This document shows, piece after piece, positions 1 through 62,976 of a DNA stretch of 64,000 nucleotides. The position numbers and the translations under genes were made by a program. The stretch is from Loxodes magnus (lineage: Eukaryota; Ciliophora; Karyorelictea; Loxodida; Loxodidae): contig CAMPDV010002091.1 in the NCBI GenBank assembly GCA_946699065.1, positions 1 through 64,000 on the forward strand. Direction: 5' to 3'. The number at the start of each line of letters is the position of its first letter. Positions within the stretch are counted from its first letter, which is position 1. The notes beneath the pieces are model-generated. The model saw only the letters and a list, made by a program, of their open reading frames with translations, had not been told where the DNA came from and ran no database searches.

Positions 1-1516
1 TTCATTATCTGCGGAAGTTGAGATAACTCTATCAAAGTCTGGGATTTCCAGACTGGAAGTTGTACTCGGACATTAAGTGGACATTCCTCTTATTTTTATT
101 CGGTTGCGATCTCCAATGATCAGAAGTTCATTATCTCCGGAAGTTATGACAACTCTATCAAAGTCTGGGATTTCCAGACTGGAAGTTGTATTCGGACATT
201 AAGTGGACATTCCTCTTATGTTTATTCGGTTGCGATCTCCAATGATAAAAAGTTCATTATCTCCGGAAGTGGAGATAACTCTATCAAAGTCTGGGATTTC
301 CAGACTGGAAGTTGTACTCGGACATTAAGTGGACATTCCTCTTATGTTTATTCGGTGGCGATCTCCAATGATCAGAAGTTCATTATCTGCGGAAGTAGAG
401 ATAAATCTATCAAAGTCTGGGATTTCCAGACTGGAAGTTGTACTCGGACATTAAGTGGACATTCCTCTTATGTTTATTCGGTTGTGATCTCCAATGATCA
501 GAAGTTCATTATCTCCGGAAGTAGAGATAACTCTATCAAAGTCTGGGATTTCCAGACTGGAAGTTGTATTCGGACATTAAGTGGACATTCCTCTGGAGTT
601 TATTCGGTGGCGATCTCCAATGATCAGAAGTTCATGATCTCCGGAAGTGGAGATAACTCTATCAAAGTCTGGGATTTCCAGACTGGAAGTTGTATTCGGA
701 CATTAAGTGGACATTCCTCTTATGTTTATTCGGTTGTGATCTCCAATGATCAGAAGTTCATTATCTCCGGAAGTAGAGATAAATCTATCAAAGTCTGGGA
801 TTTCCAGACTGGAAGTTGTATTCGGACATTAAGTGGACATTCCTCTTAAGTTAATTCGGTTGCGATCTCCAATGATCAGAAGTTCATTATCTGCGGAAGT
901 AGAGATAACTCTATCAAAGTCTGGGATTTCCAGACTGGAAGTTGTATTCGGACATTAAGTGGACATTCCTCTGGAGTTTATTCGGTGGCGATCTCCAATG
1001 ATCAGAAGTTCATGATCTCCGGAAGTGGAGATAACTCTATCAAAGTCTGGGATTTCCAGACTGGAAGTTGTACTCGGACATTAAGTGGACATTCCTATGT
1101 AGTTTATTCGGTTGCGATCTCCAATGATCAGAAGTTCATTATCTCCGGAAGTAGAGATAAATCTATCAAAGTCTGGGATTTCCAGACTGGAAGTTGTATT
1201 CGGACATTAAGTGGACATTCCTCTTTAGTTTATTCGGTGGCGATCTCCAATGATCAGAAGTTCATTATCTGCGGAAGTAGAGATAACTCTATCAAAGTCT
1301 GGGATTTCCAGACTGGAAGTTGTATTCGGACATTAAGTGGACATTCCTCTGGAGTTTATTCGGTGGCGATCTCCAATGATCAGAAGTTCATGATCTCCGG
1401 AAGTAGAGATAAATCTATCAAAGTCTGGGATTTCCAGACTGGAAGTTGTACTCGGACATTAAGTGGACATTCCTCTTATGTTTATTCGGTGGCGATCTCC
1501 AATGATCAGAAGTTCA
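1..1516 (+). repeat. 2520-bp higher-order block, copy 1 (12 units visible)
   Basis: Matches 2521-4036 at an offset of 20 units. I see three clusters of difference: codon 39 and the next codon 1 near 337-357, codon 15 at 523 (AGA here, TGA in copy 2), and codon 39 at 1351 (GGA here, TAT in copy 2). The match stops at 1517, where ATT becomes ATG. It may extend left of the window. Confidence 0.85.
36..54 (+). other. Inverted repeat present in every unit (first example)
   Basis: AGTCTGG and CCAGACT form a perfect 7-bp inverted repeat around a 5-nt GATTT loop, over the codons for V-W-D-F-Q-T. It recurs every 126 bp and is kept in nearly all units. It can be closed by one more G-T wobble pair in RNA. 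The TGA22 form (13 units) breaks the innermost pair, and the Asn23 form keeps the stem. No function is known; it may follow simply from the homogenised coding sequence. Confidence 0.6.
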
Positions 1517-1614
1517 TTATCTCCGGAAGTTGAGATAAATCTATCAAAGTCTGGGATTTCCAGACTGGAAGTTGTATTCGGACATTAAGTGGACATTCCT
1601 CTGGAGTTTATTCG

Positions 1615-2541
1615 GTGGCGATCTCCAATGATCAGAAGTTCATTATCTGCGGAAGTAGAGATAACTCTATCAAAGTCTGGGATTTCCAGACTGGAAATTG
1701 TACTCGGACATTAAGTGGACATTCCTCTGAAGTTAATTCGGTGGCGATCTCCAATGATCAGAAGTTCATTATCTGCGGAAGTAGAGATAACTCTATCAAA
1801 GTCTGGGATTTCCAGACTGGAAATTGTACTCGGACATTAAGTGGACATTCCTCTGAAGTTAATTCGGTGGCGATCTCCAATGATCAGAAGTTCATTATCT
1901 GCGGAAGTAGAGATAACTCTATCAAAGTCTGGGATTTCCAGACTGGAAGTTGTACTCGGACATTAAGTGGACATTCCTCTTATGTTTATTCGGTGGCGAT
2001 CTCCAATGATCAGAAGTTCATTATCTGCGGAAGTAGAGATAACTCTATCAAAGTCTGGGATTTCCAGACTGGAAGTTGTATTCGGACATTAAGTGGACAT
2101 TCCTCTGGAGTTTATTCGGTGGCGATCTCCAATGATCAGAAGTTCATGATCTCCGGAAGTGGAGATAACTCTATCAAAGTCTGGGATTTCCAGACTGGAA
2201 GTTGTATTCGGACATTAAGTGGACATTCCTCTTATGTTTATTCGGTGGCGATCTCCAATGATCAGAAGTTCATTATCTGCGGAAGTAGAGATAACTCTAT
2301 CAAAGTCTGGGATTTCCAGACTGGAAGTTGTATTCGGACATTAAGTGGACATTCCTCTGGAGTTTATTCGGTTGCGATCTCCAATGATCAGAAGTTCATT
2401 ATCTCCGGAAGTGGAGATAACTCTATCAAAGTCTGGGATTTCCAGACTGGAAGTTGTACTCGGACATTAAGTGGACATTCCTCTTATGTTTATTCGGTGG
2501 CGATCTCCAATGATCAGAAGTTCATTATCTGCGGAAGTTGA
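1615..2541 (+). CDS. Open WD40 segment (7 units plus 14 codons, 308 codons), left-end subfamily
   Basis: Residue 15 reads R R R R G R G and then TGA. Most units have Cys12 (ATC TGC), the hallmark of the first 9 kb. The first two units carry Asn28 (TGNCTR) and SSEVNS and are nearly the same as each other, which marks a fresh one-unit duplication. Downstream the 2520-bp block copy begins (2521). Confidence 0.35.
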   Translation: MAISNDQKFIICGSRDNSIKVWDFQTGNCTRTLSGHSSEVNSVAISNDQKFIICGSRDNSIKVWDFQTGNCTRTLSGHSSEVNSVAISNDQKFIICGSRDNSIKVWDFQTGSCTRTLSGHSSYVYSVAISNDQKFIICGSRDNSIKVWDFQTGSCIRTLSGHSSGVYSVAISNDQKFMISGSGDNSIKVWDFQTGSCIRTLSGHSSYVYSVAISNDQKFIICGSRDNSIKVWDFQTGSCIRTLSGHSSGVYSVAISNDQKFIISGSGDNSIKVWDFQTGSCTRTLSGHSSYVYSVAISNDQKFIICGS

Positions 2542-4036
2542 GATAACTCTATCAAAGTCTGGGATTTCCAGACTGGAAGTTGTACTCGGACATTAAGTGG
2601 ACATTCCTCTTATTTTTATTCGGTTGCGATCTCCAATGATCAGAAGTTCATTATCTCCGGAAGTTATGACAACTCTATCAAAGTCTGGGATTTCCAGACT
2701 GGAAGTTGTATTCGGACATTAAGTGGACATTCCTCTTATGTTTATTCGGTTGCGATCTCCAATGATAAAAAGTTCATTATCTCCGGAAGTGGAGATAACT
2801 CTATCAAAGTCTGGGATTTCCAGACTGGAAGTTGTACTCGGACATTAAGTGGACATTCCTCTGGAGTTTATTCGGTTGCGATCTCCAATGATCAGAAGTT
2901 CATTATCTGCGGAAGTAGAGATAAATCTATCAAAGTCTGGGATTTCCAGACTGGAAGTTGTACTCGGACATTAAGTGGACATTCCTCTTATGTTTATTCG
3001 GTTGTGATCTCCAATGATCAGAAGTTCATTATCTCCGGAAGTTGAGATAACTCTATCAAAGTCTGGGATTTCCAGACTGGAAGTTGTATTCGGACATTAA
3101 GTGGACATTCCTCTGGAGTTTATTCGGTGGCGATCTCCAATGATCAGAAGTTCATGATCTCCGGAAGTGGAGATAACTCTATCAAAGTCTGGGATTTCCA
3201 GACTGGAAGTTGTATTCGGACATTAAGTGGACATTCCTCTTATGTTTATTCGGTTGTGATCTCCAATGATCAGAAGTTCATTATCTCCGGAAGTAGAGAT
3301 AAATCTATCAAAGTCTGGGATTTCCAGACTGGAAGTTGTATTCGGACATTAAGTGGACATTCCTCTTAAGTTAATTCGGTTGCGATCTCCAATGATCAGA
3401 AGTTCATTATCTGCGGAAGTAGAGATAACTCTATCAAAGTCTGGGATTTCCAGACTGGAAGTTGTATTCGGACATTAAGTGGACATTCCTCTGGAGTTTA
3501 TTCGGTGGCGATCTCCAATGATCAGAAGTTCATGATCTCCGGAAGTGGAGATAACTCTATCAAAGTCTGGGATTTCCAGACTGGAAGTTGTACTCGGACA
3601 TTAAGTGGACATTCCTATGTAGTTTATTCGGTTGCGATCTCCAATGATCAGAAGTTCATTATCTCCGGAAGTAGAGATAAATCTATCAAAGTCTGGGATT
3701 TCCAGACTGGAAGTTGTATTCGGACATTAAGTGGACATTCCTCTTTAGTTTATTCGGTGGCGATCTCCAATGATCAGAAGTTCATTATCTGCGGAAGTAG
3801 AGATAACTCTATCAAAGTCTGGGATTTCCAGACTGGAAGTTGTATTCGGACATTAAGTGGACATTCCTCTTATGTTTATTCGGTGGCGATCTCCAATGAT
3901 CAGAAGTTCATGATCTCCGGAAGTAGAGATAAATCTATCAAAGTCTGGGATTTCCAGACTGGAAGTTGTACTCGGACATTAAGTGGACATTCCTCTTATG
4001 TTTATTCGGTGGCGATCTCCAATGATCAGAAGTTCA
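2521..4036 (+). repeat. 2520-bp higher-order block, copy 2
   Basis: Second copy of 1-1516, sharing rare markers such as TTT at residue 40 (SSYFYS, near 2614), AAA for CAG at residue 7 near 2767, and a SYVVYS unit near 3613. Part of it (from about 3613) also matches 6133 onward, a further 20 units away. Confidence 0.85.
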
Positions 4037-4062
4037 TGATCTCCGGAAGTTATGACAACTCT

Positions 4063-4875
4063 ATCAAAGTCTGGGATTTCCAGACTGGAAGTTGTACTCG
4101 GACATTAAGTGGACATTCCTCTGAAGTTAATTCGGTGGCGATATCAAATGATCAGAAGTTCATTATTTCCGGAAGTAATGATAAATCTATCAAAGTCTGG
4201 GATTTCCAGACTGGAAGTTGTATTCGGACATTAAGTGGACATTCCTCTTAAGTTAATTCGGTTGCGATATCAAATGATCAGAAGTTCATGATCTCCGGAA
4301 GTTATGACAACTCAATCAAAGTCTGGGATTTCCAGACTGGAAGTTGTATTCGGACATTAAGTGGACATTCCTCTGAAGTTAATTCGGTGGCGATCTCCAA
4401 TGATCAGAAGTTCATTATCTGCGGAAGTAGAGATAACTCTATCAAAGTCTGGGATTTCCAGACTGGAAGTTGTATTCGGACATTAAGTGGACATTCCTCT
4501 TAAGTTAATTCGGTTGCGATATCAAATGATCAGAAGTTCATTATCTCCGGAAGTGGAGATAAATCTATCAAAGTCTGGGATTTCCAGACTGGAAGTTGTA
4601 CTCGGACATTAAGTGGACATTCCTCTGAAGTTAATTCGGTGGCGATATCAAATGATCAGAAGTTCATTATTTCCGGAAGTAATGATAAATCTATCAAAGT
4701 CTGGGATTTCCAGACTGGAAGTTGTATTCGGACATTAAGTGGACATTCCTCTTAAGTTAATTCGGTTGCGATATCAAATGATCAGAAGTTCATGATCTCC
4801 GGAAGTTATGACAACTCAATCAAAGTCTGGGATTTCCAGACTGGAAGTTGTATTCGGACATTAAGTGGACATTCC
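4063..4875 (+). repeat. 504-bp (4-unit) duplication pair
   Basis: 4063-4371 matches 4567-4875. Both copies carry two rare markers: ATT TCC in place of ATC TCC at residues 11-12 together with Asn15-Asp-Lys, and TCA for TCT at residue 18 in the following Tyr15 unit. The copies part at codon 39 (GAA in the first, TTA in the second). Confidence 0.8.
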
Positions 4876-7689
4876 TCTTTAGTTTATTCGGTGGCGATCT
4901 CCAATGATCAGAAGTTCATTATCTGCGGAAGTAGAGATAACTCTATCAAAGTCTGGGATTTCCAGACTGGAAGTTGTATTCGGACATTAAGTGGACATTC
5001 CTCTGGAGTTTATTCGGTGGCGATCTCCAATGATCAGAAGTTCATGATCTCCGGAAGTAGAGATAACTCTATCAAAGTCTGGGATTTCCAGACTGGAAGT
5101 TGTACTCGGACATTAAGTGGACATTCCTCTTATGTTTATTCGGTGGCGATCTCCAATGATCAGAAGTTCATTATCTGCGGAAGTTGAGATAACTCTATCA
5201 AAGTCTGGGATTTCCAGACTGGAAGTTGTATTCGGACATTAAGTGGACATTCCTCTTAAGTTAATTCGGTTGCGATATCAAATGATCAGAAGTTCATTAT
5301 CTCCGGAAGTTATGACTACTCTATCAAAGTCTGGGATTTCCAGACTGGAAGTTGTATTCGGACATTAAGTGGACATTCCTCTTATGTTTATTCGGTTGTG
5401 ATCTCCAATGATCAGAAGTTCATTATCTCCGGAAGTAGAGATAAATCTATCAAAGTCTGGGATTTCCAGACTGGAAGTTGTATTCGGACATTAAGTGGAC
5501 ATTCCTCTTATGTTTATTCGGTGGCGATCTCCAATGATCAGAAGTTCATTATCTCCAGAAATAGAGATAAATCTATCAAAGTCTGGGATTTCCAGACTGG
5601 AAGTTGTACTCGGACATTAAGTGGACATTCCTCTTATGTTTATTCGGTTGTGATCTCCAATGATCAGAAGTTCATTATCTCCGGAAGTAATGATAAATCT
5701 ATCAAAGTCTGGGATTTCCAGACTGGAAGTTGTATTCGGACATTAAGTGGACATTCCTCTTAAGTTAATTCGGTTGCGATCTCCAATGATCAGAAGTTCA
5801 TTATCTCCGGAAGTTGAGATAAATCTATCAAAGTCTGGGATTTCCAGACTGGAAGTTGTACTCGGACATTAAGTGGACATTCCTCTTATGTTTATTCGGT
5901 GGCGATCTCCAATGATCAGAAGTTCATTATCTCCGGAAGTGGAGATAACTCTATCAAAGTCTGGGATTTCCAGACTAGAAGTTGTACTCGGACATTAAGT
6001 GGACATTCCTCTGAAGTTAATTCGGTGGCGATCTCCAATGATCAGAAGTTCATTATCTCCGGAAGTTGAGATAAATCTATCAAAGTCTGGGATTTCCAGA
6101 CTGGAAGTTGTACTCGGACATTAAGTGGACATTCCTATGTAGTTTATTCGGTTGCGATCTCCAATGATCAGAAGTTCATTATCTCCGGAAGTAGAGATAA
6201 ATCTATCAAAGTCTGGGATTTCCAGACTGGAAGTTGTATTCGGACATTAAGTGGACATTCCTCTTTAGTTTATTCGGTGGCGATCTCCAATGATCAGAAG
6301 TTCATTATCTGCGGAAGTAGAGATAACTCTATCAAAGTCTGGGATTTCCAGACTGGAAGTTGTATTCGGACATTAAGTGGACATTCCTCTGGAGTTTATT
6401 CGGTGGCGATCTCCAATGATCAGAAGTTCATGATCTCCGGAAGTAGAGATAAATCTATCAAAGTCTGGGATTTCCAGACTGGAAGTTGTATTCGGACATT
6501 AAGTGGACATTCCTCTGGAGTTTATTCGGTGGCGATCTCCAATGATCAGAAGTTCATTATCTGCGGAAGTAGAGATAACTCTATCAAAGTCTGGGATTTC
6601 CAGACTAGAAGTTGTACTCGGACATTAAGTGGACATTCCTCTGAAGTTAATTCGGTGGCGATCTCCAATGATCAGAAGTTCATTATCTCCGGAAGTTGAG
6701 ATAAATCTATCAAAGTCTGGGATTTCCAGACTGGAAGTTGTATTCGGACATTAAGTGGACATTCCTCTTATGTTTATTCGGTGGCGATCTCCAATGATCA
6801 GAAGTTCATTATCTCCGGAAGTTGAGATAACTCTATCAAAGTCTGGGATTTCCAGACTGGAAGTTGTATTCGGACATTAAGTGGACATTCCTCTTAAGTT
6901 AATTCGGTTGCGATATCAAATGATCAGAAGTTCATGATCTCCGGAAGTTATGACAACTCTATCAAAGTCTGGGATTTCCAGACTGGAAGTTGTACTCGGA
7001 CATTAAGTGGACATTCCTCTGAAGTTAATTCGGTGGCGATCTCCAATGATCAGAAGTTCATTATCTGCGGAAGTGGAGATAAATCTATCAAAGTCTGGGA
7101 TTTCCAGACTGGAAGTTGTATTCGGACATTAAGTGGACATTCCTCTTATGTTTATTCGGTGGCGATCTCCAATGATCAGAAGTTCATGATCTCCGGAAGT
7201 TATGACAACTCTATCAAAGTCTGGGATTTCCAGACTGGAAGTTGTATTCGGACATTAAGTGGACATTCCTCTGAAGTTAATTCGGTGGCGATCTCCAATG
7301 ATCAGAAGTTCATTATCTGCGGAAGTGGAGATAAATCTATCAAAGTCTGGGATTTCCAGACTGGAAGTTGTATTCGGACATTAAGTGGACATTCCTCTTA
7401 AGTTAATTCGGTTGCGATATCAAATGATCAGAAGTTCATGATCTCCGGAAGTTGAGATAACTCTATCAAAGTCTGGGATTTCCAGACTGGAAGTTGTACT
7501 CGGACATTAAGTGGACATTCCTCTTATGTTTATTCGGTTGCGATCTCCAATGATCAGAAGTTCATTATCTCCGGAAGTTGAGATAACTCTATCAAAGTCT
7601 GGGATTTCCAGACTGGAAGTTGTACTCGGACATTAAGTGGACATTCCTCTTATGTTTATTCGGTTGCGATCTCCAATGATCAGAAGTTC

Positions 7690-8463
7690 ATGATCTCCGG
7701 AAGTAGAGATAACTCTATCAAAGTCTGGGATTTCCAGACTGGAAGTTGTATTCGGACATTAAGTGGACATTCCTATGGAGTTAATTCGGTGGCGATCTCC
7801 AATGATCAGAAGTTCATTATCTCCGGAAGTTATGACAACTCTATCAAAGTCTGGGATTTCCAGACTGGAAGTTGTATTCGGACATTAAGTGGACATTCCT
7901 ATGGAGTTATTTCGGTTGCGATCTCCAATGATCAGAAGTTCATTATCTCCGGAAGTAATGATAACTCTATCAAAGTCTGGGATTTCCAGACTGGAAGTTG
8001 TACTCGGACATTAAGTGGACATTCCTCTTATGTTTATTCGGTGGCGATCTCCAATGATCAGAAGTTCATGATCTCCGGAAGTAGAGATAACTCTATCAAA
8101 GTCTGGGATTTCCAGACTGGAAGTTGTATTCGGACATTAAGTGGACATTCCTCTTATGTTTATTCGGTGGCGATCTCCAATGATCAGAAGTTCATTATCT
8201 CCGGAAGTTATGACAACTCTATCAAAGTCTGGGATTTCCAGACTGGAATTTGTATTCGGACATTAAGTGGACATTCCTCTGAAGTTAATTCGGTTGCGAT
8301 ATCAAATGATCAGAAGTTCATTATCTCCGGAAGTAATGATAACTCTATCAAAGTCTGGGATTTCCAGACTGGAAGTTGTATTCGGACATTAAGTGGACAT
8401 TCCTCTTATGTTTATTCGGTGGCGATATCAAATGATCAGAAGTTCATTATCTCCGGAAGTTGA
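7690..8463 (+). CDS. Open WD40 segment (6 units plus 14 codons, 257 codons)
   Basis: Residue 15 reads R Y N R Y N and then TGA. It opens at an ATG that is simply the Met10 variant codon. This is where Tyr15, Asn15 and the SYGVNS/SYGVIS forms, typical of the rest of the array, first become common, so it lies at the border of the left-end subfamily. Confidence 0.33.
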   Translation: MISGSRDNSIKVWDFQTGSCIRTLSGHSYGVNSVAISNDQKFIISGSYDNSIKVWDFQTGSCIRTLSGHSYGVISVAISNDQKFIISGSNDNSIKVWDFQTGSCTRTLSGHSSYVYSVAISNDQKFMISGSRDNSIKVWDFQTGSCIRTLSGHSSYVYSVAISNDQKFIISGSYDNSIKVWDFQTGICIRTLSGHSSEVNSVAISNDQKFIISGSNDNSIKVWDFQTGSCIRTLSGHSSYVYSVAISNDQKFIISGS

Positions 8464-11400
8464 GATAACTCTATCAAAGTCTGGGATTTCCAGACTGGAA
8501 GTTGTACTCGGACATTAAGTGGACATTCCTCTTAAGTTAATTCGGTGGCGATCTCCAATGATCAGAAGTTCATGATCTCCGGAAGTTATGACAACTCTAT
8601 CAAAGTCTGGGATTTCCAGACTGGAAGTTGTATTCGGACATTAAGTGGACATTCCTCTGAAGTTAATTCGGTGGCGATCTCCAATGATCAGAAGTTCATT
8701 ATCTGCGGAAGTGGAGATAAATCTATCAAAGTCTGGGATTTCCAGACTGGAAGTTGTACTCGGACATTAAGTGGACATTCCTCTGGAGTTTATTCGGTGG
8801 CGATATCAAATGATCAGAAGTTCATTATCTCCGGAAGTTGAGATAACTCTATAAAAGTCTGGGATTTCCAGACTGGAAGTTGTACTCGGACATTAAGTGG
8901 ACATTCCTATGTAGTTTATTCGGTTGCGATATCAAATGATCAGAAGTTCATTATCTCCGGAAGTGATGATAACTTTATCAAAGTCTGGGATTTCCAGACT
9001 GGAAGTTGTATTCGGACATTAAGTGGACATTCCTCTTAAGTTAATTCGGTTGCGATATCAAATGATCAGAAGTTCATTATCTCCGGAAGTTGAGATAACT
9101 CTATCAAAGTCTGGGATTTCCAGACTGGAAGTTGTATTCGGACATTAAGTGGACATTCCTCTTATGTTTATTCGGTGGCGATCTCCAATGATCAGAAGTT
9201 CATTATCTCCGGAAGTAATGATAAATCTATCAAAGTCTGGGATTTCCAGACTGGAAGTTGTATTCGGACATTAAGTGGACATTCCTCTTATGTTTATTCG
9301 GTGGCGATCTCCAATGATCAGAAGTTCATTATCTCCGGAAGTTGAGATAACTCTATCAAAGTCTGGGATTTCCAGACTGGAAGTTGTATTCGGACATTAA
9401 GTGGACATTCCTCTGGAGTTTATTCGGTTGCGATCTCCAATGATCAGAAGTTCATTATCTCCGGAAGTGGAGATAACTCTATCAAAGTCTGGGATTTCCA
9501 GACTGGAAGTTGTACTCGGACATTAAGTGGACATTCCTCTTATGTTTATTCGGTGGCGATCTCCAATGATCAGAAGTTCATTATCTCCGGAAGTAGAGAT
9601 AACTCTATCAAAGTCTGGGATTTCCAGACTGGAAGTTGTACTCGGACATTAAGTGGACATTCCTCTTATGTTTATTCGGTGGCGATATCAAATGATCAGA
9701 AGTTCATGATCTCCGGAAGTGCAGATAACTCTATCAAAGTCTGGGATTTCCAGACTGGAAGTTGTACTCGGACATTAAGTGGACATTCCTATGGAGTTAA
9801 TTCGGTTGCGATCTCCAATGATCAGAAGTTCATTATCTCCGGAAGTTGAGATAACTCTATCAAAGTCTGGGATTTCCAGACTGGAAGTTGTACTCGGACA
9901 TTAAGTGGACATTCCTATGTAGTTTATTCGGTGGCGATCTCCAATGATCAGAAGTTCATTATCTCCGGAAGTTATGACAACTCTATCAAAGTCTGGGATT
10001 TCCAGACTGGAAGTTGTATTCGGACATTAAGTGGACATTCCTCTTATGTTTATTCGGTTGCGATCTCCAATGATCAGAAGTTCATTATCTCCGGAAGTTA
10101 TGACAACTCTATCAAAGTCTGGGATTTCCAGACTGGAAGTTGTATTCGGACATTAAGTGGACATTCCTATGGAGTTATTTCGGTTGCGATCTCCAATGAT
10201 CAGAAGTTCATGATCTCCGGAAGTTGAGATAACTCTATCAAAGTCTGGGATTTCCAGACTGGAAGTTGTATTCGGACATTAAGTGGACATTCCTCTTATG
10301 TTTATTCGGTGGCGATCTCCAATGATCAGAAGTTCATGATCTCCGGAAGTTGAGATAACTCTATCAAAGTCTGGGATTTCCAGACTGGAAGTTGTACTCG
10401 GACATTAAGTGGACATTCCTCTTATGTTTATTCGGTTGCGATATCAAATGATCAGAAGTTCATTATCTCCGGAAGTTATGACAACTCTATCAAAGTCTGG
10501 GATTTCCAGACTGGAAGTTGTATTCGGACATTAAGTGGACATTCCTATGGAGTTATTTCGGTTGCGATCTCCAATGATCAGAAGTTCATTATCTCCGGAA
10601 GTTATGACAACTCTATCAAAGTCTGGGATTTCCAGACTGGAAGTTGTATTCGGACATTAAGTGGACATTCCTCTTATGTTTATTCGGTGGCGATCTCCAA
10701 TGATCAGAAGTTCATGATCTCCGGAAGTTGAGATAACTCTATCAAAGTCTGGGATTTCCAGACTGGAAGTTGTATTCGGACATTAAGTGGACATTCCTCT
10801 GAAGTTAATTCGGTGGCGATCTCCAATGATCAGAAGTTCATTATCTCCGGAAGTTATGACAACTCTATCAAAGTCTGGGATTTCCAGACTGGAAGTTGTA
10901 CTCGGACATTAAGTGGACATTCCTATGTAGTTTATTCGGTGGCGATCTCCAATGATCAGAAGTTCATTATCTCCGGAAGTGGAGATAACTCTATCAAAGT
11001 CTGGGATTTCCAGACTGGAAGTTGTATTCGGACATTAAGTGGACATTCCTCTGAAGTTAATTCGGTGGCGATCTCCAATGATCAGAAGTTCATTATCTCC
11101 GGAAGTTGAGATAACTCTATCAAAGTCTGGGATTTCCAGACTGGAAGTTGTATTCGGACATTAAGTGGACATTCCTCTGAAGTTAATTCGGTGGCGATCT
11201 CCAATGATCAGAAGTTCATTATCTCCGGAAGTGGAGATAACTCTATCAAAGTCTGGGATTTCCAGACTGGAAGTTGTATTCGGACATTAAGTGGACATTC
11301 CTCTGAAGTTAATTCGGTGGCGATCTCCAATGATCAGAAGTTCATTATCTCCGGAAGTTATGACAACTCTATCAAAGTCTGGGATTTCCAGACTGGAAGT

Positions 11401-13332
11401 TGTACTCGGACATTAAGTGGACATTCCTATGTAGTTTATTCGGTGGCGATCTCCAATGATCAGAAGTTCATTATCTCCGGAAGTGGAGATAACTCTATCA
11501 AAGTCTGGGATTTCCAGACTGGAAGTTGTATTCGGACATTAAGTGGACATTCCTCTTATGTTTATTCGGTTGCGATATCAAATGATCAGAAGTTCATTAT
11601 CTCCGGAAGTTATGACAACTCTATCAAAGTCTGGGATTTCCAGACTGGAAGTTGTATTCGGACATTAAGTGGACATTCCTATGGAGTTATTTCGGTTGCG
11701 ATCTCCAATGATCAGAAGTTCATTATCTCCGGAAGTTATGACAACTCTATCAAAGTCTGGGATTTCCAGACTGGAAGTTGTATTCGGACATTAAGTGGAC
11801 ATTCCTCTTATGTTTATTCGGTGGCGATCTCCAATGATCAGAAGTTCATTATCTCCGGAAGTTGAGATAACTCTATCAAAGTCTGGGATTTCCAGACTGG
11901 AAGTTGTATTCGGACATTAAGTGGACATTCCTCTTATGTTTATTCGGTGGCGATATCAAATGATCAGAAGTTCATTATCTCCGGAAGTTATGACAACTCT
12001 ATCAAAGTCTGGGATTTCCAGACTGGAAGTTGTACTCGGACATTAAGTGGACATTCCTCTTATGTTTATTCGGTGGCGATATCAAATGATCAGAAGTTCA
12101 TGATCTCCGGAAGTTGAGATAACTCTATAAAAGTCTGGGATTTCCAGACTGGAAGTTGTACTCGGACATTAAGTGGACATTCCTATGTAGTTTATTCGGT
12201 TGCGATATCAAATGATCAGAAGTTCATTATCTCCGGAAGTTATGACAACTCTATCAAAGTCTGGGATTTCCAGACTGGAAGTTGTATTCGGACATTAAGT
12301 GGACATTCCTCTGAAGTTAATTCGGTTGCGATATCAAATGATCAGAAGTTCATTATCTCCGGAAGTTGAGATAACTCTATCAAAGTCTGGGATTTCCAGA
12401 CTGGAAGTTGTATTCGGACATTAAGTGGACATTCCTCTTATGTTTATTCGGTGGCGATATCAAATGATCAGAAGTTCATTATCTCCGGAAGTTATGACAA
12501 CTCTATCAAAGTCTGGGATTTCCAGACTGGAAGTTGTACTCGGACATTAAGTGGACATTCCTCTTATGTTTATTCGGTGGCGATATCAAATGATCAGAAG
12601 TTCATGATCTCCGGAAGTGCAGATAACTCTATCAAAGTCTGGGATTTCCAGACTGGAAGTTGTACTCGGACATTAAGTGGACATTCCTATGGAGTTAATT
12701 CGGTTGCGATCTCCAATGATCAGAAGTTCATTATCTCCGGAAGTTGAGATAACTCTATCAAAGTCTGGGATTTCCAGACTGGAAGTTGTACTCGGACATT
12801 AAGTGGACATTCCTATGTAGTTTATTCGGTGGCGATCTCCAATGATCAGAAGTTCATGATCTCCGGAAGTGGAGATAACTCTATCAAAGTCTGGGATTTC
12901 CAGACTGGAAGTTGTACTCGGACATTAAGTGGACATTCCTATGGAGTTAATTCGGTTGCGATCTCCAATGATCAGAAGTTCATTATCTCCGGAAGTTGAG
13001 ATAACTCTATCAAAGTCTGGGATTTCCAGACTGGAAGTTGTACTCGGACATTAAGTGGACATTCCTATGTAGTTTATTCGGTGGCGATCTCCAATGATCA
13101 GAAGTTCATTATCTCCGGAAGTGGAGATAACTCTATCAAAGTCTGGGATTTCCAGACTGGAAGTTGTATTCGGACATTAAGTGGACATTCCTCTTATGTT
13201 TATTCGGTGGCGATCTCCAATGATCAGAAGTTCATGATCTCCGGAAGTTGAGATAACTCTATCAAAGTCTGGGATTTCCAGACTGGAAGTTGTATTCGGA
13301 CATTAAGTGGACATTCCTCTGAAGTTAATTCG

Positions 13333-17100: not shown

Positions 17101-17229
17101 GAAGTTATTTCGGTGGCGATCTCCAATGATCAGAAGTTCATTATCTCCGGAAGTTATGACAACTCTATCAAAGTCTGGGATTTCCAGACTGGAAGTTGTA
17201 TTCGGACATTAAGTGGACATTCCTCTGAA

Positions 17230-49662: not shown

Positions 49663-50241
49663 AGAGATAACTCTATCAAAGTCTGGGATTTCCAGACTGG
49701 AAGTTGTATTCGGACATTAAGTGGACATTCCTCTTATGTTTATTCGGTGGCGATCTCCAATGATCAGAAGTTCATTATCTCCGGAAGTAATGATAACTCT
49801 ATCAAAGTCTGGGATTTCCAGACTGGAAGTTGTATTCGGACATTAAGTGGACATTCCTATGGAGTTATTTCGGTGGCGATCTCCAATGATCAGAAGTTCA
49901 TGATCTCCGGAAGTTATGATAACTCTATCAAAGTCTGGGATTTCCAGACTGGAAGTTGTATTCGGACATTAAGTGGACATTCCTCTTATGTTTATTCGGT
50001 GGCGATATCAAATGATCAGAAGTTCATGATCTCCGGAAGTTATGACAACTCTATCAAAGTCTGGGATTTCCAGACTGGAAGTTGTATTCGGACATTAAGT
50101 GGACATTCCTATGGAGTTATTTCGGTGGCGATCTCCAATGATCAGAAGTTCATGATCTCCGGAAGTTATGATAACTCTATCAAAGTCTGGGATTTCCAGA
50201 CTGGAAGTTGTATTCGGACATTAAGTGGACATTCCTCTTAA
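49369..50241 (+). CDS. Open WD40 segment (7 units, 290 codons) spanning a block junction
   Basis: Residue 15 reads Y Y R N Y Y Y, ending at TAA39. It crosses the join between the two 3402-bp blocks near 49650: the first units belong to the end of block 1 and the rest to the start of block 2. The corresponding place in block 2 (52771-53214) diverges after the second unit and ends at a TGA at residue 22. Confidence 0.35.
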   Translation: MAISNDQKFIISGSYDNSIKVWDFQTGSCIRTLSGHSYGVNSVAISNDQKFIISGSYDNSIKVWDFQTGSCIRTLSGHSSYVYSVAISNDQKFIISGSRDNSIKVWDFQTGSCIRTLSGHSSYVYSVAISNDQKFIISGSNDNSIKVWDFQTGSCIRTLSGHSYGVISVAISNDQKFMISGSYDNSIKVWDFQTGSCIRTLSGHSSYVYSVAISNDQKFMISGSYDNSIKVWDFQTGSCIRTLSGHSYGVISVAISNDQKFMISGSYDNSIKVWDFQTGSCIRTLSGHSS

Positions 50242-53064: not shown

Positions 53065-53400
53065 TATGACAACTCTATCAAAGTCTGGGATTTCCAGACT
53101 GGAAGTTGTACTCGGACATTAAGTGGACATTCCTCTTATGTTTATTCGTTGGCGATCTCCAATTATCAGAAGTTCATTATCTCCGGAAGTAATGACAACT
53201 CTATCAAAGTCTGAGATTTCCAGACTGGAAGTTGTATTCGGACATTAAGTGGACATTCCTCTTAAGTTAATTCGGTGGCGATCTCCAATGATCAGAAGTT
53301 CATGATCTCCGGAAGTTATGATAACTCTATCAAAGTCTGGGATTTCCAGACTGGAAGTTGTATTCGGACATTAAGTGGACATTCCTCTTAAGTTAATTCG

Positions 53401-54201
53401 GTGGCGATATCAAATGATCAGAAGTTCATTATCTCCGGAAGTAGAGATAACTCTATCAAAGTCTGGGATTTCCAGACTGGAAGTTGTACTCGGACATTAA
53501 GTGGACATTCCTCTTATGTTTATTCGGTGGCGATCTCCAATGATCAGAAGTTCATGATCTCCGGAAGTTATGATAACTCTATCAAAGTCTGGGATTTCCA
53601 GACTGGAAGTTGTATTCGGACATTAAGTGGACATTCCTCTTATGTTTATTCGGTGGCGATCTCCAATGATCAGAAGTTCATTATCTCCGGAAGTTATGAC
53701 AACTCTATCAAAGTCTGGGATTTCCAGACTGGAAGTTGTATTCGGACATTAAGTGGACATTCCTCTGAAGTTAATACGGTTGCGATATCAAATGATCAGA
53801 AGTTCATTATCTCCGGAAGTAGAGATAACTCTATCAAAGTCTGGGATTTCCAGACTGGAAGTTGTATTCGGACATTAAGTGGACATTCCTATGGAGTTAT
53901 TTCGGTTGCGATCTCCAATGATCAGAAGTTCATTATCTCCGCAAGTAATGATAACTCTATCAAAGTCTGGGATTTCCAGACTGGAAGTTGTACTCGGACA
54001 TTAAGTGGACATTCCTCTTATGTTTATTCGGTGGCGATCTCCAATGATCAGAAGTTCATGATCTCCGGAAGTTATGATAACTCTATCAAAGTCTGGGATT
54101 TCCAGACTGGAAGTTGTATTCGGACATTAAGTGGACATTCCTCTTATGTTTATTCGGTGGCGATCTCCAATGATCAGAAGTTCATGATCTCCGGAAGTTG
54201 A
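53401..54201 (+). CDS. Open WD40 segment (6 units plus 14 codons, 266 codons)
   Basis: Residue 15 reads R Y Y R N Y and then TGA (54199), one of only three TGA15 stops in the last 10 kb before the tail. Unit 3 has Thr for Ser42 (SSEVNT) and unit 5 has Ala for Gly13 (SAS). The Thr42 form recurs near 55917, so these neighbourhoods share ancestry. Confidence 0.33.
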   Translation: MAISNDQKFIISGSRDNSIKVWDFQTGSCTRTLSGHSSYVYSVAISNDQKFMISGSYDNSIKVWDFQTGSCIRTLSGHSSYVYSVAISNDQKFIISGSYDNSIKVWDFQTGSCIRTLSGHSSEVNTVAISNDQKFIISGSRDNSIKVWDFQTGSCIRTLSGHSYGVISVAISNDQKFIISASNDNSIKVWDFQTGSCTRTLSGHSSYVYSVAISNDQKFMISGSYDNSIKVWDFQTGSCIRTLSGHSSYVYSVAISNDQKFMISGS

Positions 54202-57200
54202 GATAACTCTATCAAAGTCTGGGATTTCCAGACTGGAAGTTGTACTCGGACATTAAGTGGACATTCCTCTTAAGTTAATTCGGTTGCGATATCAAATGAT
54301 CAGAAGTTCATTATCTCCGGAAGTAATGATAACTCTATCAAAGTCTGGGATTTCCAGACTGGAAGTTGTATTCGGACATTAAGTGGACATTCCTATGGAG
54401 TTATTTCGGTTGCGATCTCCAATGATCAGAAGTTCATTATCTCCGGAAGTTATGACAACTCTATCAAAGTCTGGGATTTCCAGACTGGAAGTTGTATTCG
54501 GACATTAAGTGGACATTCCTCTTAAGTTAATTCGGTGGCGATATCAAATGATCAGAAGTTCATTATCTCCGGAAGTAGAGATAACTCTATCAAAGTCTGG
54601 GATTTCCAGACTGGAAGTTGTATTCGGACATTAAGTGGACATTCCTCTTAAGTTAATTCGGTGGCGATCTCCAATGATCAGAAGTTCATTATCTCCGGAA
54701 GTTATGATAACTCTATCAAAGTCTGGGATTTCCAGACTGGAAGTTGTATTCGGACATTAAGTGGACATTCCTATGGAGTTATTTCGGTTGCGATCTCCAA
54801 TGATCAGAAGTTCATTATCTCCGGAAGTAGAGATAACTCTATCAAAGTCTGGGATTTCCAGACTGGAAGTTGTATTCGGACATTAAGTGGACATTCCTCT
54901 GGAGTTATTTCGGTTGCGATCTCCAATGATCAGAAGTTCATTATCTCCGGAAGTTATGATAACTCTATCAAAGTCTGGGATTTCCAGACTGGAAGTTGTA
55001 TTCGGACATTAAGTGGACATTCCTATGGAGTTAATTCGGTGGCGATCTCCAATGATCAGAAGTTCATTATCTCCGGAAGTTATGACAACTCTATCAAAGT
55101 CTGGGATTTCCAGACTGGAAGTTGTATTCGGACATTAAGTGGACATTCCTATGGAGTTAATTCGGTGGCGATCTCCAATGATCAGAAGTTCATTATCTCC
55201 GGAAGTTATGACAACTCTATCAAAGTCTGGGATTTCCAGACTGGAAGTTGTACTCGGACATTAAGTGGACATTCCTCTTATGTTTATTCGGTGGCGATCT
55301 CCAATTATCAGAAGTTCATTATCTCCGGAAGTAATGACAACTCTATCAAAGTCTGAGATTTCCAGACTGGAAGTTGTATTCGGACATTAAGTGGACATTC
55401 CTCTTAAGTTAATTCGGTGGCGATCTCCAATGATCAGAAGTTCATGATCTCCGGAAGTAGAGATAACTCTATCAAAGTCTGGGATTTCCAGACTGGAAGT
55501 TGTATTCGGACATTAAGTGGACATTCCTCTTATGTTTATTCGGTGGCGATCTCCAATGATCAGAAGTTCATTATCTCCGGAAGTAATGATAACTCTATCA
55601 AAGTCTGGGATTTCCAGACTGGAAGTTGTACTCGGACATTAAGTGGACATTCCTCTGCAGTTTATTCGGTGGCGATCTCCAATGATCAGAAGTTCATTAT
55701 CTCCGGAAGTGATGATAACTCTATCAAAGTCTGGGATTTCCAGACTGGAAGTTGTACTCGGACATTAAGTGGACATTCCTCTGGAGTTATTTCGATTGCG
55801 ATCTCCAATGATCAGAAGTTCATTATCTCCGGAAGTAGAGATAACTCTATCAAAGTCTGGGATTTCCAGACTGGAAGTTGTATTCGGACATTAAGTGGAC
55901 ATTCCTCTGAAGTTAATACGGTTGCGATATCAAATGATCAGAAGTTCATTATCTCCGGAAGTAGAGATAACTCTATCAAAGTCTGGGATTTCCAGACTGG
56001 AAGTTGTATTCGGACATTAAGTGGACATTCCTCTTATGTTTATTCGGTGGCGATATCAAATGATCAGAAGTTCATTATCTCCGGAAGTTATGACAACTCT
56101 ATCAAAGTCTGGGATTTCCAGACTGGAAGTTGTATTCGGACATTAAGTGGACATTCCTCTTAAGTTAATTCGGTGGCGATATCAAATGATCAGAAGTTCA
56201 TTATCTCCGGAAGTAGAGATAACTCTATCAAAGTCTGGGATTTCCAGACTGGAAGTTGTATTCGGACATTAAGTGGACATTCCTCTTAAGTTAATTCGGT
56301 GGCGATCTCCAATGATCAGAAGTTCATTATCTCCGGAAGTAATGATAACTCTATCAAAGTCTGGGATTTCCAGACTGGAAGTTGTATTCGGACATTAAGT
56401 GGACATTCCTATGGAGTTATTTCGGTTGCGATCTCCAATGATCAGAAGTTCATTATCTCCGGAAGTTATGATAACTCTATCAAAGTCTGGGATTTCCAGA
56501 CTGGAAGTTGTATTCGGACATTAAGTGGACATTCCTCTTATGTTTATTCGGTGGCGATATCAAATGATCAGAAGTTCATTATCTCCGGAAGTTATGACAA
56601 CTCTATCAAAGTCTGGGATTTCCAGACTGGAAGTTGTATTCGGACATTAAGTGGACATTCCTCTTAAGTTAATTCGGTGGCGATCTCCAATGATCAGAAG
56701 TTCATTATCTCCGGAAGTTATGACAACTCTATCAAAGTCTGGGATTTCCAGACTGGAAGTTGTACTCGGACATTAAGTGGACATTCCTCTTAAGTTAATT
56801 CGGTGGCGATCTCCAATTATCAGAAGTTCATTATCTCCGGAAGTAATGATAACTCTATCAAAGTCTGGGATTTCCAGACTGGAAGTTGTATTCGGACATT
56901 AAGTGGACATTCCTCTTATGTTTATTCGGTTGCGATATCAAATGATCAGAAGTTCATTATCTCCGGAAGTTATGACAACTCTATCAAAGTCTGGGATTTC
57001 CAGACTGGAAGTTGTATTCGGACATTAAGTGGACATTCCTCTTAAGTTAATTCGGTTGCGATCTCCAATGATCAGAAGTTCATTATCTCCGGAAGTAATG
57101 ATAACTCTATCAAAGTCTGGGATTTCCAGACTGGAAGTTGTATTCGGACATTAAGTGGACATTCCTCTTATGTTTATTCGGTGGCGATCTCCAATGATCA

Positions 57201-60200
57201 GAAGTTCATGATCTCCGGAAGTAGAGATAACTCTATCAAAGTCTGGGATTTCCAGACTGGAAGTTGTATTCGGACATTAAGTGGACATTCCTCTTAAGTT
57301 AATTCGGTGGCGATATCAAATGATCAGAAGTTCATTATCTCCGGAAGTAGAGATAACTCTATCAAAGTCTGGGATTTCCAGACTGGAAGTTGTATTCGGA
57401 CATTAAGTGGACATTCCTCTTAAGTTAATTCGGTGGCGATCTCCAATGATCAGAAGTTCATTATCTCCGGAAGTAATGATAACTCTATCAAAGTCTGGGA
57501 TTTCCAGACTGGAAGTTGTATTCGGACATTAAGTGGACATTCCTCTTATGTTTATTCGGTGGCGATCTCCAATGATCAGAAGTTCATTATCTCCGGAAGT
57601 AATGATAACTCTATCAAAGTCTGGGATTTCCAGACTGGAAGTTGTACTCGGACATTAAGTGGACATTCCTCTTATGTTTATTCGGTGGCGATCTCCAATG
57701 ATCAGAAGTTCATGATCTCCGGAAGTAGAGATAACTCTATCAAAGTCTGGGATTTCCAGACTGGAAGTTGTATTCGGACATTAAGTGGACATTCCTCTTA
57801 TGTTTATTCGGTGGCGATCTCCAATGATCAAAAGTTCATTATCTCCAAAAGTTCTGATAACTCTATCAAAGTCTGGGATTTCCAGACTGGAAGTTGTACT
57901 CGGACATTAAGTGGACATTCCTCTGAAGTTAATTCGGTTGCGATATCAAATGATCAGAAGTTCATTATCTCCGGAAGTAGAGATAACTCTATCAAAGTCT
58001 GGGATTTCCAGACTGGAAGTTGTATTCGGACATTAAGTGGACATTCCTCTTATGTTTATTCGGTGGCGATATCAAATGATCAGAAGTTCATTATCTCCGG
58101 AAGTTATGACAACTCTATCAAAGTCTGGGATTTCCAGACTGGAAGTTGTATTCGGACATTAAGTGGACATTCCTCTTAAGTTAATTCGGTGGCGATCTCC
58201 AATGATCAGAAGTTCATTATCTCCGGAAGTAATGATAACTCTATCAAAGTCTGGGATTTCCAGACTGGAAGTTGTATTCGGACATTAAGTGGACATTCCT
58301 CTTATGTTTATTCGGTGGCGATCTCCAATGATCAGAAGTTCATTATCTCCGGAAGTAATGATAACTCTATCAAAGTCTGGGATTTCCAGACTGGAAGTTG
58401 TATTCGGACATTAAGTGGACATTCCTCTTATGTTTATTCGGTGGCGATATCAAATGATCAGAAGTTCATTATCTCCGGAAGTTATGATAACTCTATCAAA
58501 GTCTGGGATTTCCAGACTGGAAGTTGTATTCGGACATTAAGTGGACATTCCTCTTAAGTTAATTCGGTTGCGATCTCCAATGATCAGAAGTTCATTATCT
58601 CCGGAAGTAATGATAACTCTATCAAAGTCTGGGATTTCCAGACTGGAAGTTGTATTCGGACATTAAGTGGACATTCCTCTTATGTTTATTCGGTGGCGAT
58701 CTCCAATGATCAGAAGTTCATTATCTCCGGAAGTAATGATAACTCTATCAAAGTCTGGGATTTCCAGACTGGAAGTTGTATTCGGACATTAAGTGGACAT
58801 TCCTCTTAAGTTAATTCGGTGGCGATATCAAATGATCAGAAGTTCATTATCTCCGGAAGTAATGATAACTCTATCAAAGTCTGGGATTTCCAGACTGGAA
58901 GTTGTATTCGGACATTAAGTGGACATTCCTCTTATGTTTATTCGGTGGCGATCTCCAATGATCAGAAGTTCATTATCTCCGGAAGTTATGATAACTCTAT
59001 CAAAGTCTGGGATTTCCAGACTGGAAGTTGTATTCGGACATTAAGTGGACATTCCTCTTATGTTTATTCGGTGGCGATATCAAATGATCAGAAGTTCATT
59101 ATCTCCGGAAGTTATGACAACTCTATCAAAGTCTGGGATTTCCAGACTGGAAGTTGTATTCGGACATTAAGTGGACATTCCTCTTAAGTTAATTCGGTGG
59201 CGATATCAAATGATCAGAAGTTCATTATCTCCGGAAGTAGAGATAACTCTATCAAAGTCTGGGATTTCCAGACTGGAAGTTGTATTCGGACATTAAGTGG
59301 ACATTCTTCTTAAGTTAATTCGGTGGCGATCTCCAATGATCAGAAGTTCATTATCTCCGGAAGTAATGATAACTCTATCAAAGTCTGGGATTTCCAGACT
59401 GGAAGTTGTACTCGGACATTAAGTGGACATTCCTCTGCAGTTTATTCGGTGGCGATCTCCAATGATCAGAAGTTCATTATCTCCGGAAGTGATGATAACT
59501 CTATCAAAGTCTGGGATTTCCAGACTGGAAGTTGTATTCGGACATTAAGTGGACATTCCTCTGGAGTTATTTCGGTTGCGATCTCCAATGATCAGAAGTT
59601 CATTATCTCCGGAAGTTATGATAACTCTATCAAAGTCTGGGATTTCCAGACTGGAAGTTGTATTCGGACATTAAGTGGACATTCCTATGGAGTTAATTCG
59701 GTGGCGATCTCCAATGATCAGAAGTTCATTATCTCCGGAAGTTATGACAACTCTATCAAAGTCTGGGATTTCCAGACTGGAAGTTGTACTCGGACATTAA
59801 GTGGACATTCCTCTTAAGTTAATTCGGTGGCGATCTCCAATGATCAGAAGTTCATTATCTCCGGAAGTAATGATAACTCTATCAAAGTCTGGGATTTCCA
59901 GACTGGAAGTTGTATTCGGACATTAAGTGGACATTCCTCTTATGTTTATTCGGTTGCGATATCAAATGATCAGAAGTTCATTATCTCCGGAAGTTATGAC
60001 AACTCTATCAAAGTCTGGGATTTCCAGACTGGAAGTTGTATTCGGACATTAAGTGGACATTCCTCTTAAGTTAATTCGGTTGCGATCTCCAATGATCAGA
60101 AGTTCATTATCTCCGGAAGTAATGATAACTCTATCAAAGTCTGGGATTTCCAGACTGGAAGTTGTATTCGGACATTAAGTGGACATTCCTCTTATGTTTA

Positions 60201-61639
60201 TTCGGTGGCGATATCAAATGATCAGAAGTTCATTATCTCCGGAAGTAGAGATAACTCTATCAAAGTCTGGGATTTCCAGACTGGAAGTTGTATTCGGACA
60301 TTAAGTGGACATTCCTCTTAAGTTAATTCGGTGGCGATATCAAATGATCAGAAGTTCATTATCTCCGGAAGTAGAGATAACTCTATCAAAGTCTGGGATT
60401 TCCAGACTGGAAGTTGTATTCGGACATTAAGTGGACATTCCTATGGAGTTAATTCGGTGGCGATCTCCAATGATCAGAAGTTCATTATCTCCGGAAGTTA
60501 TGACAACTCTATCAAAGTCTGGGATTTCCAGACTGGAAGTTGTATTCGGACATTAAGTGGACATTCCTATGGAGTTATTTCGGTGGCGATCTCCAATGAT
60601 CAGAAGTTCATTATCTCCGGAAGTTATGATAACTCTATCAAAGTCTGGGATTTCCAGACTGGAAGTTGTATTCGGACATTAAGTGGACATTCCTATGGAG
60701 TTATTTCGGTTGCGATCTCCAATGATCAGAAGTTCATTATCTCCGGAAGTTATGACAACTCTATCAAAGTCTGGGATTTCCAGACTGGAAGTTGTATTCG
60801 GACATTAAGTGGACATTCCTCTTAAGTTAATTCGGTGGCGATATCAAATGATCAGAAGTTCATTATCTCCGGAAGTTATGACAACTCTATCAAAGTCTGG
60901 GATTTCCAGACTGGAAGTTGTATTCGGACATTAAGTGGACATTCCTCTTAAGTTAATTCGGTGGCGATCTCCAATGATCAGAAGTTCATTATCTCCGGAA
61001 GTAATGATAACTCTATCAAAGTCTGGGATTTCCAGACTGGAAGTTGTATTCGGACATTAAGTGGACATTCCTCTTAAGTTATTTCGGTTGCGATCTCCAA
61101 TGATCAGAAGTTCATTATCTCCGGAAGTTATGATAACTCTATCAAAGTCTGGGATTTCCAGACTGGAAGTTGTATTCGGACATTAAGTGGACATTCCTCT
61201 TAAGTTAATTCGGTGGCGATCTCCAATGATCAGAAGTTCATTATCTCCGGAAGTTATGACAACTCTATCAAAGTCTGGGATTTCCAGACTGGAAGTTGTA
61301 TTCGGACATTAAGTGGACATTCCTATGGAGTTATTTCGGTGGCGATCTCCAATGATCAGAAGTTCATTATCTCCGGAAGTTATGACAACTCTATCAAAGT
61401 CTGGGATTTCCAGACTGGAAGTTGTATTCGGACATTAAGTGGACATTCCTATGGAGTTAATTCGGTGGCGATCTCCAATGATCAGAAGTTCATTATCTCC
61501 GGAAGTTATGACAACTCTATCAAAGTCTGGGATTTCCAGACTGGAAGTTGTATTCGGACATTAAGTGGACATTCCTATGGAGTTATTTCGGTGGCGATCT
61601 CCAATGATCAGAAGTTCATTATCTCCGGAAGTTATGATA

Positions 61640-62976
61640 ACTCTATCAAAGTCTGGGATTTCCAGACTGGAAGTTGTATTCGGACATTAAGTGGACATTC
61701 CTCTTATGTTTATTCGGTGGCGATCTCCAATGATCAGAAGTTCATTATCTCCGGAAGTAATGATAACTCTATCAAAGTCTGGGATTTCCAGACTGGAAGT
61801 TGTATTCGGACATTAAGTGGACATTCCTCTTAAGTTAATTCGGTGGCGATATCAAATGATCAGAAGTTCATTATCTCCGGAAGTTGAGATAACTCTATCA
61901 AAGTCTGGGATTTCCAGACTGGAAGTTGTATTCGGACATTAAGTGGACATTCCTCTTAAGTTAATTCGGTGGCGATCTCCAATGATCAGAAGTTCATTAT
62001 CTCCGGAAGTTATGATAACTCTATCAAAGTCTGGGATTTCCAGACTGGAAGTTGTACTCGGACATTAAGTGGACATTCCTCTTAAGTTAATTCGGTGGCG
62101 ATCTCCAATGATCAGAAGTTCATTATCTCCGGAAGTTATGATAACTCTATCAAAGTCTGGGATTTCCAGACTGGAAGTTGTATTCGGACATTAAGTGGAC
62201 ATTCCTCTTATGTTTATTCGGTGGCGATCTCCAATGATCAGAAGTTCATTATCTCCGGAAGTTATGACAACTCTATCAAAGTCTGGGATTTCCAGACTGG
62301 AAGTTGTATTCGGACATTAAGTGGACATTCCTATGGAGTTAATTCGGTGGCGATCTCCAATGATCAGAAGTTCATTATCTCCGGAAGTTATGACAACTCT
62401 ATCAAAGTCTGGGATTTCCAGACTGGAAGTTGTATTCGGACATTAAGTGGACATTCCTATGGAGTTAATTCGGTGGCGATCTCCAATGATCAGAAGTTCA
62501 TTATCTCCGGAAGTTATGACAACTCTATCAAAGTCTGGGATTTCCAGACTGGAAGTTGTATTCGGACATTAAGTGGACATTCCTCTTATGTTTATTCGGT
62601 GGCGATCTCCAATGATCAGAAGTTCATTATCTCCGGAAGTAATGATAACTCTATCAAAGTCTGGGATTTCCAGACTGGAAGTTGTATTCGGACATTAAGT
62701 GGACATTCCTCTTAAGTTAATTCGGTGGCGATATCAAATGATCAGAAGTTCATTATCTCCGGAAGTTGAGATAACTCTATCAAAGTCTGGGATTTCCAGA
62801 CTGGAAGTTGTATTCGGACATTAAGTGGACATTCCTCTTAAGTTAATTCGGTGGCGATCTCCAATGATCAGAAGTTCATTATCTCCGGAAGTTATGATAA
62901 CTCTATCAAAGTCTGGGATTTCCAGACTGGAAGTTGTACTCGGACATTAAGTGGACATTCCTCTTAAGTTAATTCG
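61640..62976 (+). repeat. 882-bp (7-unit) duplication pair near the right end
   Basis: About 61640-62094 matches 62522-62976: SSYVYS, Asn15, TAA39, TGA15, TAA39, Tyr15 and TAA39 in the same order. The upstream parts (61213 and 62095) correspond unit for unit but differ at residues 39 and 41. The error-rich tail begins right after the second copy. Confidence 0.7.

Follow-up and report, generated by a model that had tools for sequence, protein, structure and literature searches.

The first 64,000 bases of the forward strand of contig CAMPDV010002091.1 (C2091, 73,062 bp) from the Loxodes magnus assembly GCA_946699065.1, termed here the window, are occupied by a tandem array of WD40 repeat units. 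Cutting in a fixed register divides positions 1-62,974 into 499 full units of 126 bp in a single register with zero indels, none of which lies further than 12 of 126 bases from the consensus, and Tandem Repeats Finder run on the window gives a period of 126 with 507.9 copies and 94% matches. Frame +1 is the sole meaningful frame with 180 standard stops over the window compared with 676 to 2,156 in the other five. Each unit corresponds to one WD40 blade (PF00400, 477 bits for a 503-amino acid piece in Pfam) in which His-28 of the DHSW tetrad is invariant and Asp-8 and Trp-14 (TGG or TGA) are nearly invariant. A significant profile together with the tetrad residues places the array among the WD40 β-propellers, and the 94% matches place it in the highly repetitive class, defined by blades at least 0.7 identical to one another (PMC5587647). 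The features of the window are as follows.

1..62974, + strand: tandem 126-bp (42-codon) WD40 units, n = 499, one open frame without indel if TAA, TAG and TGA are sense codons (translation table 27); Pfam WD40.
19..21, + strand: codon 7 of unit 1 (D-1, blade position 23), TGA read as Trp; the most variable residue.
79..204, + strand: one of the 499 blades, given as an example and framed in structural register (GH ... RTLS).
91..93, + strand: codon 31 of unit 1 (R1-2, blade position 5); the second most variable residue.
97..99, + strand: codon 33 of unit 1 (R1, blade position 7); the third most variable residue.
847..849, + strand: first TAA at codon 31 (unit 7), Gln in table 27; one of 90 in the 499 units.
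62976..64000, + strand: the same array carried on with indels, in probably unpolished sequence; array, noisy in places, fills almost all of the rest of the 73,062-bp contig.

Beyond approximately position 62,976 the array goes on, and its unit lengths indicate a minimum of 11 inserted bases and 2 deleted ones over some 1,017 bases; this final part is probably unpolished assembly sequence. The remainder of the contig (L026) is array almost to the last base, noisy in places and with 23 frame breaks. Clean array alternates with insertion-rich stretches both in 62976-64000 and in L026, which suggests unpolished sequence inside arrays. The GC content is 0.40 in the window, ~0.45 in other arrays of the genome and ~0.25 outside arrays.

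A sequence-only reading of the window had proposed that the variation is concentrated at three residues, numbered 15, 39 and 41, which are codons 7, 31 and 33 of the units as cut here and positions 23, 5 and 7 of the blade in structural register. The alignment of all 499 units bears this out, the amino acid entropy under table 27 peaking at codon 7 (2.39 bits), codon 31 (2.17 bits) and codon 33 (1.43 bits), followed by codon 22 (0.89), codon 30 (0.87) and codon 2 (0.77). The three codons jointly hold 56% of the total entropy, which is not evenly spread over the unit. At the nucleotide level 18 sites have a minor allele of 5% or more, and 8 of these fall inside the 9 of 126 bases forming codons 7, 31 and 33 (1.3 expected, P = 3e-7). 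The ratio of nonsynonymous to synonymous diversity (piN/piS) reaches 4.7 at these codons against 0.28 elsewhere, the latter value depending on a few common sites and being 0.22 with codon 30 also excluded. The accompanying suggestion that flanking codons are frozen even at synonymous sites survives in part, as common synonymous variants are present at codons 8, 35, 37 and 38. The fourth hotspot-type codon, codon 9, is little variable (Asn in 468 units, Lys in 30).

The structural place of the variable sites was taken from the strand map of an AlphaFold2 model. The model, built from window positions 79-960 decoded into seven blades, together with an alignment of 12 homologs, has 28 strands with a mean predicted local distance difference test score (pLDDT) of 96.7 and a predicted template modeling score of 0.92. 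The strands of the first blade, a (6-11), b (17-22), c (26-31) and d (37-42), repeat every 42 residues, placing blade position 5 in the d-a loop, position 7 at the start of strand a and position 23 in the b-c loop before the tetrad aspartate. On this modeled map positions 5, 7 and 23 are the R1-2, R1 and D-1 hotspots of the WD40 top face as defined in PMC3419727, in agreement with the assignment made from the sequence alone. The top fold match is 2YMU with a root mean square deviation of 0.9, and a structure match to WDR5 pairs query residues 123-293 with 2xl2_A residues 39-209 (171 residues on each side). An ungapped offset would put the three series of sites on WDR5 residues 47, 49 and 65 plus multiples of 42, which are histone H3 contact residues. 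Among 360 matches, 59 are highly repetitive WD40 homologs (at least six blades with a mean identity of at least 0.70), and averaged over these the variability is highest at positions 23, 5, 7, 4 and 25. Position 5 is among the top three variable positions in 46 of the 59, position 23 in 45 and position 7 in 33. Since these homologs on average share the variable positions, the top-face pattern is general for highly repetitive propellers and is by itself not new.

Part of the variation takes the form of in-frame stop codons. TAA, TAG or TGA occurs in 148 of the 499 units, and 148 of the 162 such codons fall at codons 7 and 31 (TAA31 ×90, TGA7 ×56, TGA14 ×13, TGA31 ×2 and TAG34 ×1). Decoded as Gln and Trp they yield ordinary blades (SSQVNS, SGSWDNS). 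The Trp-14 codon is TGG in 486 units and TGA in 13, and homologs have tryptophan there in 97% of 1,099 repeats. The macronuclear (MAC) assembly of the karyorelict ciliate L. magnus is described as 706 Mbp in size, using table 27 (TAA and TAG for Gln, TGA for Trp or stop) with introns averaging 19.3 bp (PMC11441545). All 150 scored tubulin matches of the genome, from 258 first-look candidates, contain in-frame TAA, TAG or TGA, and because conserved genes of the same genome carry these codons internally, those of the window are sense codons in a table-27-type code. The amino acid given to each reassigned codon was taken from table 27. A decayed pseudogene under the standard code was rejected, as the units with TAA31 or TGA7 have backgrounds about as varied as those with sense alleles, and conserved genes carry the same codons. 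For TAA as Glu (table 31) the array alone is undecided, with TAA and GAA sharing partner codons; the match to the L. magnus assembly favors table 27. Stop codons serving as variable residues hide the array from standard open reading frame tools.

As a side observation the tubulin expansion is itself large, with at least 150 scored tubulin-domain places; many of the matches are clustered in both orientations on C64 (618,992-934,095) and spaced 3,342 bp apart on C441 (147,748-175,110).

The units of the window have been shuffled, since linkage falls with distance: it is strong within a cassette of codons 30, 31 and 33 and between codons 7 and 8, and is elsewhere mostly weak beyond a few codons, apart from a weak link between codons 7 and 31 that is returned to below. 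Eight cassettes account for 476 of the 499 units, there are 60 top-face combinations when codon 7 is included, and 473 of 493 seven-blade runs are distinct. No strong higher-order period is present, the biggest excess of exact unit matches being at a lag of 27 units (5.5% compared with 0.8% by chance), and the longest exact duplicated run is 16 units. Two known mutational mechanisms leave signatures that were looked for. Repeat-induced point mutation is not supported, as the 499 units have kept the CpA sites CAG17, CAG41, ACA24 and CAT28 without or almost without change, and neither is a diversity-generating retroelement, as most other adenines are frozen and the first position of codon 31 is only T or G.

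Blades of this kind also occur in genes. The genome assembly (705,730,643 bases in 7,843 contigs) contains a gene on C512 in which a kinase domain (Pfam PK_Tyr_Ser-Thr, 194 bits) is followed by a 20-bp GT-AG segment and seven blades. Removal of this segment joins the kinase frame to the blades to give a 630-residue product with one internal and one terminal TGA. The gene on C1503 has a similar 20-bp segment between kinase and blades, and its contig ends after the third blade; the C512 and C1503 genes are the two read across the junction. The kinase query matches 109 places in the genome (4,512 first-look candidates, 108 scored), of which 22, including the C512 gene itself and leaving out a partial match at 74% on C323, are 66-93% identical over most of the query. 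These 22 closest copies carry 11 to 28 in-frame TAA, TAG or TGA codons each. Downstream DNA was read in 15 copies (C512 and 14 others) picked by hand and not at random, and in all 15 there are seven blades, the last a closing blade with RKW followed by TGA; in six copies (L060, L061, L064 and L067-L069) only the end of the first blade lies within the stretch read. The usual layout is five similar blades and two conserved closing blades, with blades 1-4 close to array units, blade 5 joined to the gene-specific end and blades 6 and 7 gene-specific. Variation in 31 blades of nine genes falls at the same positions as in the arrays, with 60% of the entropy in five positions. One blade of L073 is 3 bases longer. 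The more distant copies L070 (C104), L071 (C272) and L072 (C31) have seven blades of other types, which in L070 and L072 are not near-identical.

Two further observations concern individual copies. Blade 2 of the close kinase copy L061 (C462) is frameshifted, so that this copy may have lost its activity or be an assembly error, and the L071 blades have TGA at R1 and at the tetrad tryptophan.

The window itself has no kinase match and no closing blade, so that it lacks the adjacent kinase and the two closing blades that characterize the family and shares only a blade type with it. That blade type is found in the gene on C382 (L069), whose kinase is 50% identical to the query. Three of its blades match window units at 121, 115 and 121 of 126 bases. 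The fourth blade compared, which is attached to the closing blades, matches at 115, and one blade has TGA at D-1. For the remaining 14 genes the best match to the window reaches at most 97 of 126 bases. By sequence comparison the window is an array of the putative variable-blade type used by the sensor of the C382 kinase gene. A second blade type forms arrays on other contigs that match C512-type genes at up to 125 of 126 across contigs. The sequence-only reading had the hotspots right and had overlooked the stop codons within the frame, the reassigned code of the ciliate and the kinases joined to such blades.

The WD40 search of the genome gave 98,884 loose first-look candidates; the 150 that were scored lie on nine contigs, none of them C2091. 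A close kinase copy is present on seven of these nine contigs; on C119 it is ~700 kb from the array, and on C512 the scored WD40 match sits within the kinase gene itself. A phmmer search over a subset of the genome loci read found the family kinase only in L037 and L038. Six other array stretches on four contigs have the same variable positions, five positions holding 58-71% of the entropy; these values were computed on stretches without frame breaks only. Frame breaks are absent from six further array stretches (~53 kb) and number 1-10 in five others. The array edges read (L033 on C9, L034 on C620 and L058 on C1503) are abrupt junctions with AT-rich DNA, with frameshifts near the two 5' edges (L033, L034), no kinase match in L033 and L034 and, by eye, no closing blade at the 3' edge in L058. 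In the other arrays (L027, L030, L031, L036 and L039; also L058 and L059) blade positions 41 and 42, which are not hotspots, vary too, and L058 and L059 have a TGA (Trp) allele at position 41.

The reading we favor, at a probability of roughly 0.45, is that the array is a reservoir of recognition blades for kinase-WD40 receptor-like genes. Unequal crossing-over and gene conversion would keep the blade framework near-identical, so that blades stay exchangeable, while a small alphabet of residues at the ligand-contact positions would be reshuffled among the array units. Blades would occasionally be copied into the first five blade slots of the receptor-like genes with the two closing blades staying fixed, and the array itself need not be translated. 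The description of the window as a library of recognition blades is apt in that blades of this type make up the sensor of a kinase gene elsewhere in the genome; its extension to a donor bank, with transfer from array to gene, is putative. An extended form of the proposal, less likely still, is a combinatorial recognition system in which tens of kilobases of blades, already diversified at the ligand-contact residues, are held apart from a family of kinases with fixed seven-blade sockets of five interchangeable slots and two fixed closers. Blades would be copied from bank to socket by gene conversion, and the system might differ from germline to soma or from cell to cell.

Several observations weigh against the reservoir. 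When 34 blades of 10 genes among the 15 are compared, the closest unit is in an array for 11, tied for 5 and in the same gene for 18, the within-gene matches prevailing despite the far greater number of units offered by the arrays, although the test is weak. The C382 blades share Asn at blade position 36, which is present in only 2 of the 499 window units, and no recent copying from the window into C382 is apparent from this comparison because that residue is rare in the window. For codons 7 and 31 the weak link is still present at distances of 18-24 codons (z 7.7-11.8). Distinct rare variants in the window number 9 synonymous, 26 nonsynonymous and 2 nonsense, fitting a neutral expectation of 21, 74 and 4.5%, and their synonymous excess is without significance (Fisher p = 0.18 and 0.14), as for unconstrained DNA. 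Variable sites outside codons 7, 31 and 33 are nearly even over codon positions 1, 2 and 3 (12, 13 and 15), and with the neutral rare variants this means that older variants may look filtered and recent ones not. Array lengths may also be misassembled, the authors of the assembly suspecting misassembly in low-complexity repeats, which gene predictions overlap (PMC11441545).

Because the direct test on gene blades is weak and Asn-36 of C382 is rare in the window, it is nearly as likely that the array is a satellite by-product, in which a near-identical block of gene blades was expanded by unequal crossing-over and now preserves fossil gene diversity that feeds nothing back. The abrupt edges described above, with frame breaks near two of them and no gene parts seen, are consistent with this, as are the neutral appearance of the rare variants and the 231 Mbp of the MAC assembly classed as low-complexity tandem repeats (PMC11441545). 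Rare variants outside codons 7, 30, 31 and 33 include 17 of 34 GC>AT transitions and no AT>GC, a strong AT bias in recent changes that also fits a satellite. A satellite accounts less readily for zero indels in 63 kb alongside 58 substitution alleles, the probability of which is 0.003 if the indel:substitution ratio is set to 0.1 and 0.055 if it is set to 0.05, or for top-face alleles that are still diverse and not fixed. The six further stretches without frame breaks argue in the same direction, yet the five others with 1-10 breaks and the noisy rest of C2091 do not.

A giant protein, with the array translated as one polypeptide of at least 20,991 residues and ~70 propellers, is less likely because three array edges show no kinase match or closing blade, and we consider it improbable. 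The 62,974-bp frame without indel, open if the three stop codons are sense, and the seven blades modeled at a pLDDT of 96.7 would suit such a protein, but no start, kinase or end is seen in a contig that is array nearly end to end, gene parts are missing at the three edges examined in other arrays, seven is the number of blades in every one of the 15 genes and the largest blade number in one survey is 47 (PMC9218822). It is very unlikely that the units are real and their 73-kb length and order were made by the assembler from shorter arrays, since exact long duplications are few and no exact run exceeds the 16 units noted above, even though contig ends fall inside arrays, sequence quality drops at 62,976 and the authors suspect misassembly of such repeats (PMC11441545).

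Part of the published 231 of 706 Mbp of low-complexity repeats is probably WD40 blade DNA that is diverse at binding positions and matches the sensors of a kinase family, and the block may act as a parts store for recognition proteins. If blades do move from array to gene as the reservoir reading proposes, it would add a new route by which a unicellular eukaryote can assemble a repertoire for recognition; if they do not, the array is a clear case of a receptor domain turned into satellite-like DNA. The evidence comes from one genome assembly with kinase copies that are not a random sample, and array length and order may be wrong.

The storage of many copies of a variable part apart from complete genes is a feature shared with the silent-cassette systems of trypanosome variant surface glycoproteins, pilin (pilS) and Borrelia vls. 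The unit here differs in being a single propeller blade, for which an expression site or transfer is putative. Searches of viral contigs gave no confirmed close relative of the array and three single pattern matches, genome contigs gave no exact pattern match, phages no match and plasmids one match covering 16%, while 12 bacterial or archaeal WD40 loci are at most 64% identical and protein database matches reach no more than 59% identity among the matches listed (the best 120 per search). No publication on this array was found in the literature searched, a search that lay outside the pairing of Loxodes with WD40, and the main text of the Loxodes paper has no occurrence of WD40, kinase or propeller (PMC11441545). 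Kinase-WD40 proteins of bacteria and chytrids (P0032, P0060, P0119 and P0120) resemble the family in combining a kinase name or Pfam domain with repetitive WD40 and are 50-57% identical, the likeness being one of domain content. The highly repetitive WD40 or WRAP propellers of prokaryotes and fungi (2YMU, nvWRAP-T) share an internal identity above 0.7 and, on average over the 59 homologs, the same variable positions; they differ in blade number, the survey maximum of 47 (PMC9218822) comparing with 499 here, and no report of a companion array separate from the gene was found in the literature searched.

The closest parallel in the pattern of diversification is with the fungal HNWD proteins HET-D and HET-E of Podospora anserina, which are NOD-like receptors with near-identical WD40 repeats under concerted evolution, as the sequence-only reading had pointed out. 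A NACHT NTPase precedes the repeats in those proteins, whereas a protein kinase lies upstream of the blades here, and the 31 genome matches to NACHT are low-scoring (27.9-37.8 bits) with none on C2091, C382 or C512. Functional HNWD alleles usually have 11 conserved repeats, in contrast with the seven blades per gene, the giant kinase-less arrays and the table-27-type code found here. A further point in common is that in AlphaFold models of the fungal proteins the propellers are completed by cryptic divergent repeats (PMC12222747). In HNWD codons 7, 9, 25 and 27 are under positive selection (PMC1805685), and the spacing of codons 31 and 33 and of codons 7 and 9 of the next unit corresponds exactly to these, being blade positions 5, 7, 23 and 25. 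Diversity at paired top-face codons of this kind is present in the window, in the other arrays and in the gene blades.

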